From IMG/VR virus record IMGVR_UViG_3300034198_023591, positions 1 through 20,526 of that record: DNA of 20,526 bases; one strand, written 5' to 3'. The stretch is from a virus. A program made the translations under genes and the position numbers. Below, piece by piece: positions 8,372 through 20,526 of this stretch (position 1 is its first letter; the number at the start of each line of letters is the position of its first letter). Under the pieces are notes generated by a model. That model had not been told where the DNA came from and searched no databases. It saw only the letters and a list, made by a program, of their open reading frames with translations.

Positions 8372-9241
8372 GTGAAAATTTACACTATTATTTCAAATTC
8401 CCATAGATTTCTATTTGATCAATTTTTTGAAAAAAGTCTTAAAAAATACGAGCCTAGTGCTGAACTGATAGCCATAGAGCAGGAACAGATTTGTAGTTCA
8501 GCCAACTATTATGACGTTGGATGGAAGGAAGCCATGGGAAAAAAAATAGACGCATACTTAAATGCGTGTAATACAAATGATGAATTTTTTATATGGTCAG
8601 ATGTAGATATAGAATTTTATGATAAATTTATTGATCAATGTGTTTTAGAACTTGGTCAAGACGATATAGCTTTTCAAGAAGGAATTGGTAGAGAATACTG
8701 TGCTGGATTTTTTATATGTCGTATTAATCAAAAAACCAAAGACTTTTTTACATTTTTAAAAAATAATTACGATAGATATGCTTGTGATCAAGAGGCTATT
8801 AATAGTAATATACATTTAATAAAAGCTAAATTTTTATCCCATAAATTTTTAAATATCTCTTTTCAACATAGACAATGGAGTGGTCAAAATATTGATATTC
8901 TAGAACCTATCGTTATGTTTCATGCGAACTACACCGTTGGATTACAGCATAAAATTATGTTATTAGCCCAAGTCAAAGAAAAACTAGAATATATTAAAAA
9001 ACATAATATTAAAAATAATGTAAAACATAATTCAAATATTAAAATTATAAATGCTTTTTATGGATTATTTGGCGACGTAACTGAAGCCATTATGTCTACC
9101 AACAATGAATTCTCAATAGGAATAGATACTTTAAGATCAGATCCAGTGCCAGGTGCCTTGAAATACTTGTATTTTTTTGATAAAAACTATAAACTGATAC
9201 ATAGACCTATTAAAGAAGGTTTAGTGATACGTATCAATTAA
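8372..9241 (+). CDS. GT-A glycosyltransferase with C-terminal DVT-type accessory domain
   Basis: Translation starts at a GTG; AAAGGA at 8359-8364 is well spaced for it and no better ATG exists nearby. Of the 289 residues, about 1-200 look like a nucleotide-diphospho-sugar transferase. IWSDVDIEFY (74-83) holds the metal-binding DxD, YCAGFFICRINQKTKDFF (109-126) is the conserved acceptor-side block, then DQEAIN (139-144) and MFHANYTVG (182-190). After a lysine/asparagine-rich linker (about 203-223), residues 224-289 form a distinct small beta module: IINAFYGLFGDVTEAI, a DTLRSDPVPGALKYLYF stretch and EGLVIRI. This pattern (YG...DVT...DPxPGxxKxL...EG) resembles the DUF3395-like domain. It probably helps bind glycan or a partner. 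The sugar used is unknown. Confidence 0.82.
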   Translation: MKIYTIISNSHRFLFDQFFEKSLKKYEPSAELIAIEQEQICSSANYYDVGWKEAMGKKIDAYLNACNTNDEFFIWSDVDIEFYDKFIDQCVLELGQDDIAFQEGIGREYCAGFFICRINQKTKDFFTFLKNNYDRYACDQEAINSNIHLIKAKFLSHKFLNISFQHRQWSGQNIDILEPIVMFHANYTVGLQHKIMLLAQVKEKLEYIKKHNIKNNVKHNSNIKIINAFYGLFGDVTEAIMSTNNEFSIGIDTLRSDPVPGALKYLYFFDKNYKLIHRPIKEGLVIRIN

Positions 9242-9243
9242 TT

Positions 9244-10095
9244 ATGATTACTATAGAGAATTTTGGACACAGGGATTATGGTAGACTTGGAAATCAATTA
9301 TTCCAATATAGTCTTGCTAAAATTTTAGCAACCTACAATAATTGTAATTTTTATCTTAATCCGTCAAATCATTTTTTAAATTTTTTTGATGCTAATTCAT
9401 TAACATATAGTTCTATTACCAAAAAACTCAACACTCAAGAACACAAAGAATCAGACCCATACGGCTTCCAACCAGAAATATTCCACAAAACTGATATAAA
9501 TCTTTTAGGTTTTTTTCAAAACTTATCTTACTACAGAAACTTTTTAGATATTCTAAATCAAGAAATTCTACCTAATATAAACTTGGTTAATAAAACACTA
9601 AAATATTTAAAACAAAAAACTAAATACACTTTAGATTTAGACGAAAGTATTTGTATACATATTAGAAGAACAGATTATACAGTATTACAAAGAACATATG
9701 GTTTCTTAAATATTGAATATTATTTAGATATTATAAAAAACTACATTAATAAATATAAACATATTTTTATTATTAGTGACGACATCCAGAAAGTTAAAAA
9801 TGAACTTTGTGGGGATTTACTAGGTAGTAATGTATACCTTATGGATGACCTTGATGTATATCACGATTTCTATATTATGTACTTAAGTAGAATTAACCTA
9901 ATTGCAAATAGTACCTTTTCGTGGTGGGCCGCTTTATTATCTTCTTTAAGATATTCTAAAAAAATCTATGCCCCATACCCATGGCTTAATTCCAACTATG
10001 TGTCACAATCATATTGCGAGTCTATAGATTTATACCCAAGTTCTTGGTATAAAATTAACACAAATACATTTAAATGGAATAAATTATTTATATGA
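9244..10095 (+). CDS. GT11 alpha-1,2-fucosyltransferase-like protein
   Basis: This 283-residue protein matches GT11 well: GRLGNQLFQYSLAKILA (13-29), the GDP-fucose-binding CIHIRRTDY (137-145), FIISDD (175-180) and ANSTFSWWAALLS (221-233). GT11 enzymes move fucose from GDP-fucose to a galactose-type acceptor in alpha-1,2 linkage. No membrane segment is present, so it should act in the cytoplasm. No GDP-fucose biosynthesis gene is in the window, so the donor would come from the host or from elsewhere in the genome. It starts 2 bp after the previous stop and ends in an ATGA overlap with a protein that carries a second, unrelated fucosyltransferase-like domain. Confidence 0.92.
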   Translation: MITIENFGHRDYGRLGNQLFQYSLAKILATYNNCNFYLNPSNHFLNFFDANSLTYSSITKKLNTQEHKESDPYGFQPEIFHKTDINLLGFFQNLSYYRNFLDILNQEILPNINLVNKTLKYLKQKTKYTLDLDESICIHIRRTDYTVLQRTYGFLNIEYYLDIIKNYINKYKHIFIISDDIQKVKNELCGDLLGSNVYLMDDLDVYHDFYIMYLSRINLIANSTFSWWAALLSSLRYSKKIYAPYPWLNSNYVSQSYCESIDLYPSSWYKINTNTFKWNKLFI

Positions 10096-20178: not shown

Positions 20179-20277
20179 ATGTACGGTGTAATTATTAATA
20201 TCAGAATTTCTGATTTCTATCAGGATCCATCTATAATTATATTGTTGCTACAAGATTTAGGACTTTTGACTATTTAA
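20179..20277 (+). CDS. Possible 32-residue small protein
   Basis: ATG at 20179 opens 32 codons ending with TAA at 20275-20277, two bases before the ATG of the Thr-rich gene. The product starts MYGVIINIRISDFYQDPS and ends with a hydrophobic IIILLLQDLGLLTI. The tight spacing to the next start is typical of real phage genes. Against it, there is no ribosome binding site, the frame covers the plus-strand promoter-like motif, and short open frames are expected by chance. It may be a leader peptide or nothing. Confidence 0.2.
   Translation: MYGVIINIRISDFYQDPSIIILLLQDLGLLTI
20185..20199 (+). promoter_or_regulatory. GGTGTA-type promoter-like motif, copy 4
   Basis: GGTGTAATTATTAAT points toward the Thr-rich gene that begins 95 bp downstream. 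With the minus-strand copy at 20164 it forms an inverted repeat, giving a compact divergent arrangement. A palindrome at 20200-20214 (ATCAGAA, T, TTCTGAT) follows directly and could be an operator or part of the transcript leader. Confidence 0.5.
20200..20214. repeat. Short perfect palindrome downstream of promoter-like motif
   Basis: Two 7 bp arms, ATCAGAA and TTCTGAT, flank a single T. It lies just after the plus-strand GGTGTA copy, where transcription might start. It may be a repressor site; a chance palindrome in AT-rich DNA cannot be excluded. Confidence 0.3.
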
Positions 20278-20279
20278 CT

Positions 20280-20526
20280 ATGTCTATATTTAGAGATATT
20301 ATTCGTGGAGGCATTTTAAAATTTGGCCACGAAGCACTAACTAGATTCAAACACGCACAACCAGATAATCTTAGATTATGTTGTTGCGATACGACCACAA
20401 CAACAACAACAACAACAACAACAACAACAACAACAACAACAGCCTCTCCAACAACTACTACTACTACTACTACTACAACCCCAACAACGCAAACTACTCA
20501 AACAACAACCCCAACAACGCAAACTA
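20280..20526 (+). CDS. Thr-rich repeat protein, candidate virion component (partial, N-terminus)
   Basis: ATG at 20280 opens a frame that stays open to the right edge (at least 82 codons). The first 34 residues (MSIFRDIIRGGILKFGHEAL...) form a basic, probably helical head that ends in CCCD. Then come 17 threonines in a row, Ala-Ser-Pro, 10 more threonines, and a Pro/Thr/Gln repeat with a period of ten residues (PTTQTTQTTT). There is no signal peptide. Long Thr/Pro tracts of this kind occur as stalks or linkers in phage tail and head-fibre proteins and are ideal O-glycan acceptors. The rest of the protein is beyond the window, so function is open. No good ribosome binding site was found, and the frame is open back to 20214 without a usual start codon. 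Confidence 0.7.
   Translation, partial: MSIFRDIIRGGILKFGHEALTRFKHAQPDNLRLCCCDTTTTTTTTTTTTTTTTTASPTTTTTTTTTTPTTQTTQTTTPTTQT
20397..20441 (+). repeat. ACA trinucleotide run (15 units)
   Basis: Fifteen uninterrupted ACA codons encode threonine in the partial gene at 20280. Uniform codon use points to recent growth by replication slippage rather than old selection on the amino acid alone. Changes in unit number would lengthen or shorten the Thr tract without shifting the frame. Confidence 0.9.
20454..20474 (+). repeat. ACT trinucleotide run (7 units)
   Basis: Seven ACT codons form a second threonine tract that uses a different codon from the ACA run. The two tracts probably expanded independently. 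Confidence 0.85.
20475..20526 (+). repeat. Direct repeat, 30 bp period, Pro/Thr/Gln
   Basis: A 22 bp block beginning ACAACCCCAACAACG occurs at 20475-20496 and again at 20505-20526, where the window ends. The 30 bp period equals ten codons and encodes PTTQTTQTTT. More copies may lie beyond the edge. Confidence 0.85.

Follow-up and report, generated by a model that had tools for sequence, protein, structure and literature searches.

A phage locus combining a Thr/Pro-rich stalk gene, a prolyl-hydroxylase-type oxygenase and a variable sugar cassette: candidate machinery for fibre modification

The locus lies on IMG/VR record IMGVR_UViG_3300034198_023591, a fragment of 20,526 bp from a large, uncultured tailed phage; the whole fragment is the window of this analysis. 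It carries the beginning of a gene for a giant Thr/Pro-rich protein, a cassette of glycosyltransferase and sugar genes directly before it, and an oxygenase of prolyl-hydroxylase type further upstream. The conserved genes in question are as follows.

1758-2510, plus strand: DUF6065 protein (PF19541, Pfam 7.4e-38), almost always adjacent to the oxygenase in related phages.
4813-5373, plus strand: prolyl-hydroxylase-type 2-oxoglutarate (2OG)-Fe(II) oxygenase (PF13640; P3H1 1.6e-11; invariant ligands; Foldseek matches).
8372-9241, plus strand: conserved transferase (PF03407, 1.9e-6).
9244-10095, plus strand: conserved GT11 fucosyltransferase-like protein (GT11, 3.4e-11).
20280-20526, plus strand: 5' end of the gene for the Thr/Pro-rich giant protein, cut by the contig end.

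The Thr/Pro-rich gene and its island

Only 82 aa of the Thr/Pro-rich product are present in the window, because contig assembly breaks within the repeat. An overlapping contig of the same phage (G050, 114,486 bp), with essentially identical proteins, extends the product to 170 aa, the reading frame still being open. G050 also encodes the terminase large subunit and head- and tail-fibre-type structural proteins. Window positions 20280-20526 and L082:14596-15105, from the same phage, differ by one codon in the Thr run, either by repeat-length variation or by assembly error.

The gene is present in seven lineages: window/G050, G002, G003, G005, G051, G054 and G015. The N-terminus of 37 aa, MS(I/L)FRDIIRGGILKFGHEALT..FKHA.PDNLRLCCCD, is conserved in the first six and divergent in G015. 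Codon differences within it are mainly synonymous across lineages. The pattern scan for this N-terminus was non-exhaustive: G054 was missed and was recovered later via the oxygenase. The Thr tracts vary freely in length and motif (TTPTTQ, TETVTT, TSPTTS, and VPPTTT accompanied by Cys modules). Their Thr codons are of three or of all four kinds, and of all four in the window tract; mixed codons in freely varying tracts argue for selection at the protein level. The Thr-rich gene of the original prediction is real, as judged from the N-terminus found in 7 lineages, the mostly synonymous changes and the mixed Thr codons. The tract as a DNA microsatellite only is ruled out by the same codon usage together with the conserved N-terminus.

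The sole complete relative is internal to contig G051 (194,787 bp); its product is about 1,700 aa long. It consists of the Thr tract, TETPTE repeats, two PPAPPTPP/poly-Pro blocks and a Cys-rich end, in this order. The long open part contains 42% Pro and 26% Thr, with up to about 27 consecutive Pro. The description of the product as nearly pure threonine with Pro and Gln misses that the complete protein is proline-rich. A long tandem tract dominated by Thr, Ser and Pro is complete in G051 and partial elsewhere. No signal peptide is found in the conserved N-terminus, unlike in mucins, which are secreted. The protein is mucin-like in composition only and is not classed as a mucin. The Cys-rich C-terminus matches no Pfam family and, by sequence, only its own contig. 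Beyond the gene family, the 37-aa N-terminus has no relatives in the sequences compared and only a chance match in phage records. A promoter scan upstream of the gene performs no better than shuffles. Genes downstream of the stalk gene in G051 resemble adhesins: one product of 332 aa is C-type-lectin/FGE-like by eye, and one of 2,607 aa has a laminin-G domain.

The gene closes a variable island. At the empty site, found in at least 11 phages of the volactin group (named after an actin-family gene common to all of them), about 0.5 kb separates the S8 subtilase gene from a small core gene downstream, G051_142, which forms the right edge. In the window clade the island contains the gene at 7997, the PF03407 and GT11 transferases, hypervariable sugar genes and, last, the Thr gene; the insert in G051 totals about 22 kb. 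Among the variable genes of some lineages are NeuB, CMP-sugar synthetase and UDP-galactopyranose mutase; sequence reading alone adds an SIS-type isomerase, transketolase-like halves, an aminotransferase and a UDP-GlcNAc epimerase. Cassettes are interchangeable between the conserved ends.

The Thr gene, the oxygenase and the transferases at 8372 and 9244 occur together in 7/7 lineages, and the Thr gene is never seen without transferases. In six of the seven, a gene for a transferase, a methyltransferase or UDP-galactopyranose mutase either overlaps it or lies within about 75 nt of its start; in the window it is preceded, at 235 bp, by a divergent gene. L079:9035-9922 encodes a further stalk protein rich in Thr and Pro, which has a C-terminal domain; its gene directly adjoins a same-site transferase array on the opposite strand.

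The oxygenase and its neighbours

The oxygenase, which lies outside the region of the original prediction (8372-20526), is found in 7 of 21 contigs searched: the six with the Thr gene, plus G004, a contig of the G003 phage that ends before reaching the Thr gene. It is absent from the other 14 volactin contigs. Residues H96xD98, H157 and R167, corresponding to the HxD...H iron triad and the basic 2OG-binding residue of prolyl hydroxylases, are invariant in 7 sequences. Profile matches in the PDB are P3H1 (1.6e-11) and P4H (6e-5); Tet-like entries appear only at E=0.24. The predicted fold (pLDDT 83) has nearly only prolyl hydroxylases among the top 50 Foldseek matches (TM about 0.6), the best being human P3H1, vCPH of the chlorovirus PBCV-1, bacterial P4H and PHD2. 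The protein groups with prolyl hydroxylases rather than with other 2OG oxygenases, and by sequence and model the corresponding activity is predicted.

Volactin, HNH and S8 genes separate the oxygenase from the transferases, and other phages carry these genes without either; oxygenase and cassette are therefore not one simple block. In the volactin tree the oxygenase-positive phages stand in two places, and its well-supported branches require two or more changes.

A scan with the oxygenase alignment yields 29 loci, some in phages in which no volactin is seen. DUF6065 adjoins the oxygenase in 23 of 25 loci examined, unrelated phages included, missing only in the two weakest, and is likely its functional partner. 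In the PDB, DUF6065 matches only designed Pizza propeller proteins, a result left uninterpreted.

Genes with proline tracts, of which the background is about 2/2,400, recur beside the oxygenase in distant phages. A fibre-like protein of 1,531 aa with a 14-Pro run is encoded by a gene ending 40 bp upstream of the oxygenase-DUF6065 pair (L214). A gene with a 22-Pro run is convergent to the pair, 4 bp apart (L199), and one with a 17-Pro run lies four genes from it (L211). Contig L215 starts inside a Pro run of the gene immediately upstream of the oxygenase; in L212 the oxygenase directly follows an S74-domain tail-fibre gene. The poly-Pro neighbours tie the oxygenase to fibre-like Pro tracts independently of the window clade. 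As a separate observation, contig G060 (L219:5020-7203) encodes collagen-like PPG and PPPPPT repeats elsewhere than at its oxygenase-DUF6065 pair.

Cassette enzymes, upstream genes and source

The remaining genes of the cassette are as follows.

10092-12083, plus strand: CAP59-type mannosyltransferase, probably of two domains (CAP59, 9.5e-10).
12253-12870, plus strand: DUF5672 transferase-like protein (DUF5672, 2.2e-10).
12851-13636, plus strand: WavE-like transferase (WavE, 7.4e-5, below cut-off), with homologues in G015 and G051.
13608-14312, plus strand: CMP-sugar (nonulosonate) synthetase of PseF/NeuA type (cytidylyltransferase, 2.3e-10; nearest PseF, below the cut-off of that model).
14309-15688, plus strand: DxD glycosyltransferase (5-sequence profile) with a C-terminal methyltransferase-like part read from motifs only.
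15685-17331, plus strand: mannosyltransferase-like and methyltransferase fusion (Mannosyl_trans3, 1.5e-26; methyltransferase, 4e-13).
17333-18448, plus strand: possibly a transferase (no profile match).
18443-20044, minus strand: possibly a GT-A transferase (DDD motif by eye; no profile match).

The open reading frame (ORF) positions first assigned from 8372 to the window end are confirmed on re-inspection. At least nine transferases had been counted there; seven have profile support, but those at 17333-18448 and 18443-20044 match nothing in Pfam, PHROGs, NCBIfam or the PDB. For 18443-20044 relatives were searched and none found; the AF2 model from the single sequence reaches a pLDDT of only 36. 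The CMP-sugar synthetase is borne out by its cytidylyltransferase match. Of two methyltransferase-like domains claimed, that of 15685-17331 has profile support, but that at the C-terminus of 14309-15688 rests on motif reading. This latter protein has no Pfam match; its 5-sequence profile, with an invariant DxD, matches domain 1 of PBCV-1 A064R at E=0.001. The PF03407 alignment of the 8372 family finds no match in the PDB.

As originally stated, the enzymes lack signal peptides: no N-terminal hydrophobic segment is present in any cassette enzyme, nor is any clear membrane segment. The glycosyltransferases and sugar-nucleotide enzymes are thus virus-encoded and signal-peptide-free, as in virion glycosylation systems. 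The small ORF 12098-12283 (61 aa) has homologues at the equivalent junction in phages carrying other cargo; it lies inside the window cassette, so cargo seems to have been inserted on both its sides.

Upstream of the cassette the window contains, in addition to the oxygenase and DUF6065, the following genes.

2512-3327, plus strand: glycosyltransferase-like protein (phrog_13607; DUF7796 below cut-off), present in G002, G005 and L003.
3324-3869, plus strand: probable sugar nucleotidyltransferase (judged from motifs alone), with conserved counterparts in G002 and G005.
3863-4813, plus strand: HAD capsule-phosphatase-like and kinase-like domains (NCBIfam EcbF-BcbF, 3.5e-7; Bud32/APH-like; all below cut-off).
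5718-6719, plus strand: volactin-family actin, the anchor gene common to the whole phage group (PF25216, 6e-67).
7021-7929, plus strand: S8 subtilase, bounding the variable island on the left (PF00082, 4.6e-51).
7997-8320, plus strand: small conserved gene, seen only together with the cassette in the comparison of relatives.

An ORF at 7969-8340 on the minus strand is rejected as an antisense artefact; the true gene there is 7997-8320. Close relatives of the volactin-family protein are encoded by 311 viral-contig stretches. The paper characterising volactin makes no mention of any virus, and no description of volactin in phages was found in the literature.

Phage contigs G003 and G001 carry DUF1501 genes, and G003 also PSCyt1/PSCyt2/PSD1 and DUF1559 (L117:14539-18829, L119:4400-5407, L137:5514-6788). 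The PSCyt, DUF1501 and DUF1559 families are typical of Planctomycetota; in G003 and G001 they are possibly a host signal as well as unusual auxiliary genes. Host assignment from genome bins is rejected: the three contigs from metagenome-assembled genomes are unrelated, probably misbinned, and disagree with the Planctomycetota signal.

Interpretation and known systems

The reading tentatively favoured, at a little short of an even chance, is that the locus is a phage-encoded factory hydroxylating and glycosylating a long Thr/Pro fibre. Gene content, co-occurrence, enzyme family and fold, and stalk composition are observed; catalysis, substrate, virion location and benefit are predicted, as follows. 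The Thr gene would give a very long disordered stalk, Thr-rich and then Pro-rich, with the conserved 37-aa N-terminus and, as in G051, a Cys-rich end. The oxygenase, with DUF6065 as likely partner, would hydroxylate stalk prolines. Soluble cassette enzymes would make activated sugars, including CMP-nonulosonate, and glycans may be built on Thr, perhaps on hydroxyproline too, in the cytoplasm ahead of assembly. Common steps would fall to the two conserved transferases (8372 and 9244), and the choice of outer sugars to the exchangeable genes lying between these and the stalk gene, in the manner of a serotype cassette. The particle would then carry a glycosylated fringe. A broader proposal, that some bacteriophages have a true hydroxyproline-rich glycoprotein coat with serotype-like variable glycans, and that oxygenase, DUF6065 and poly-Pro genes form a module by which large environmental phages in general modify their fibres, is possible but more doubtful.

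Several observations weigh against the factory reading. The seven phages that carry the Thr gene are mutually related. A single contig, G051, has the complete stalk gene, and with frameshifts; the frameshift in the repeat is likely a sequencing error, because the oxygenase and volactin genes are also broken there. Arrays of transferase and methyltransferase genes of 5-8 kb occupy the same site without a Thr gene (L044, L055, L061, L062, L069, L018), and fibre-like proteins of relatives have poly-Thr linkers without an adjacent transferase (G043, G049). Poly-Pro genes occur also in the absence of the oxygenase (G041), and no Pro tract is visible with the oxygenase at L203, L208 and L212. Oxygenases of this 2OG superfamily are common in cyanophages, their substrates unknown (PMC3037559).

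The Thr-less arrays and transferase-less linkers show that each feature can exist on its own, so that the cassette may act on more than one acceptor. The Thr tract as transferase acceptor, as originally proposed, is accordingly supported in part: it is favoured by the 7/7 co-occurrence, the tight adjacency in six lineages, the lack of membrane proteins in the cassette and the lectin-like adhesin genes next to the stalk gene in G051, and weakened by these same arrays and linkers. They also favour an alternative, judged unlikely, in which the acceptors of the cassette are other proteins of the virion (capsid, tail tube, or fibres with the short Thr linkers that fibre-like proteins across the group contain) and the Thr/Pro protein shares the island but serves, unmodified, as a spacer or adhesin stalk. 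Mycobacteriophage capsids are indeed glycosylated without such a Thr/Pro protein (PMC11256854; PMC12619734). Against it stand the Thr gene never occurring without the cassette, its close placement in the six lineages and its dedicated companion of prolyl-hydroxylase type.

Action on the host surface during infection (superinfection exclusion, serotype conversion), or a lipopolysaccharide cluster like that of P-SSM2, is improbable. Sugar-synthesis genes and variability do recall surface-polysaccharide loci, and cyanophage lipopolysaccharide clusters of unknown role exist (PMC3037559). By hydropathy, however, six cassettes contain no clear membrane-spanning protein of the lipid-linked initiation, flippase or polymerase type, and hence no flippase, polymerase or lipid-linked first transferase.

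That the oxygenase targets a host protein such as EF-Tu, as do some bacterial P4Hs, and is unrelated to the stalk, is given little credence. EF-Tu-binding Pseudomonas and Bacillus P4Hs are among its fold matches, but in distant phages its neighbours include genes for poly-Pro and tail-fibre proteins, and it occurs together with the Thr/Pro gene.

Viral transferases can build DNA glycans, primed in some phages by 2OG oxygenases (TET). Hypermodification of phage DNA by these enzymes is nevertheless highly improbable: the oxygenase matches prolyl hydroxylases and not TET proteins, a search with a working positive control finds no cytosine-C5 methylase, the absence of a Tet_JBP match counts only weakly, as the positive control also gave none, and a hypervariable cassette with an acceptor-like last gene is left unexplained. 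With an oxygenase that does not resemble TET, no cytosine methylase found and no membrane components, both DNA and host-surface modification are less likely.

Virion glycosylation is known in few phages, and acceptors and enzymes are seldom predictable from sequence. The locus provides a candidate for the acceptor together with a predicted hydroxylase and a variable glycan cassette, all in pieces small enough to express, and makes the reason for sugar clusters in large phages directly testable. No paper joining phage, threonine-rich protein, glycosyltransferases and virion was found in the literature.

Plant extensins and animal mucins are extended Thr/Pro/Ser-rich glycoproteins, and extensins need prolyl hydroxylation prior to glycosylation; no homology with the stalk is shown, and the likeness is convergence at most. 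The nearest known systems are protein hydroxylation and glycosylation in chloroviruses and mimivirus, and the glycosylated mycobacteriophages. PBCV-1 has transferases and methyltransferases of its own that act on a virion protein, and a prolyl hydroxylase besides (PMC9614988); 14309-15688 weakly matches A064R domain 1 and the oxygenase fold matches vCPH. It differs as a virus of algae with N-glycans on the major capsid protein, whereas the present system belongs to a phage, has a Thr/Pro stalk and carries its enzymes on a swappable island. Mycobacteriophages Che8 and Rita share phage-encoded transferases and have glycosylated virions (PMC11256854), but with few enzymes, a capsid target, no mucin-like protein and no hydroxylase. 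Cyanophages P-SSM2 and S-SSM7 (marine, big) similarly carry large sugar clusters, the lipopolysaccharide clusters, of unknown function; no linked Thr/Pro protein or paired prolyl-type oxygenase is described there (PMC3037559). Mimivirus collagens with L230 and R699 likewise combine a virus-encoded repetitive protein, a 2OG hydroxylase and a glycosyltransferase (PMC9546862); they differ in collagen triplets and lysyl hydroxylation, as against Thr/PPAPPTPP repeats and a prolyl-type enzyme here. If the factory reading is true, bacteriophages would follow the same order, hydroxylation and then glycosylation, as plant extensins and giant-virus collagens.

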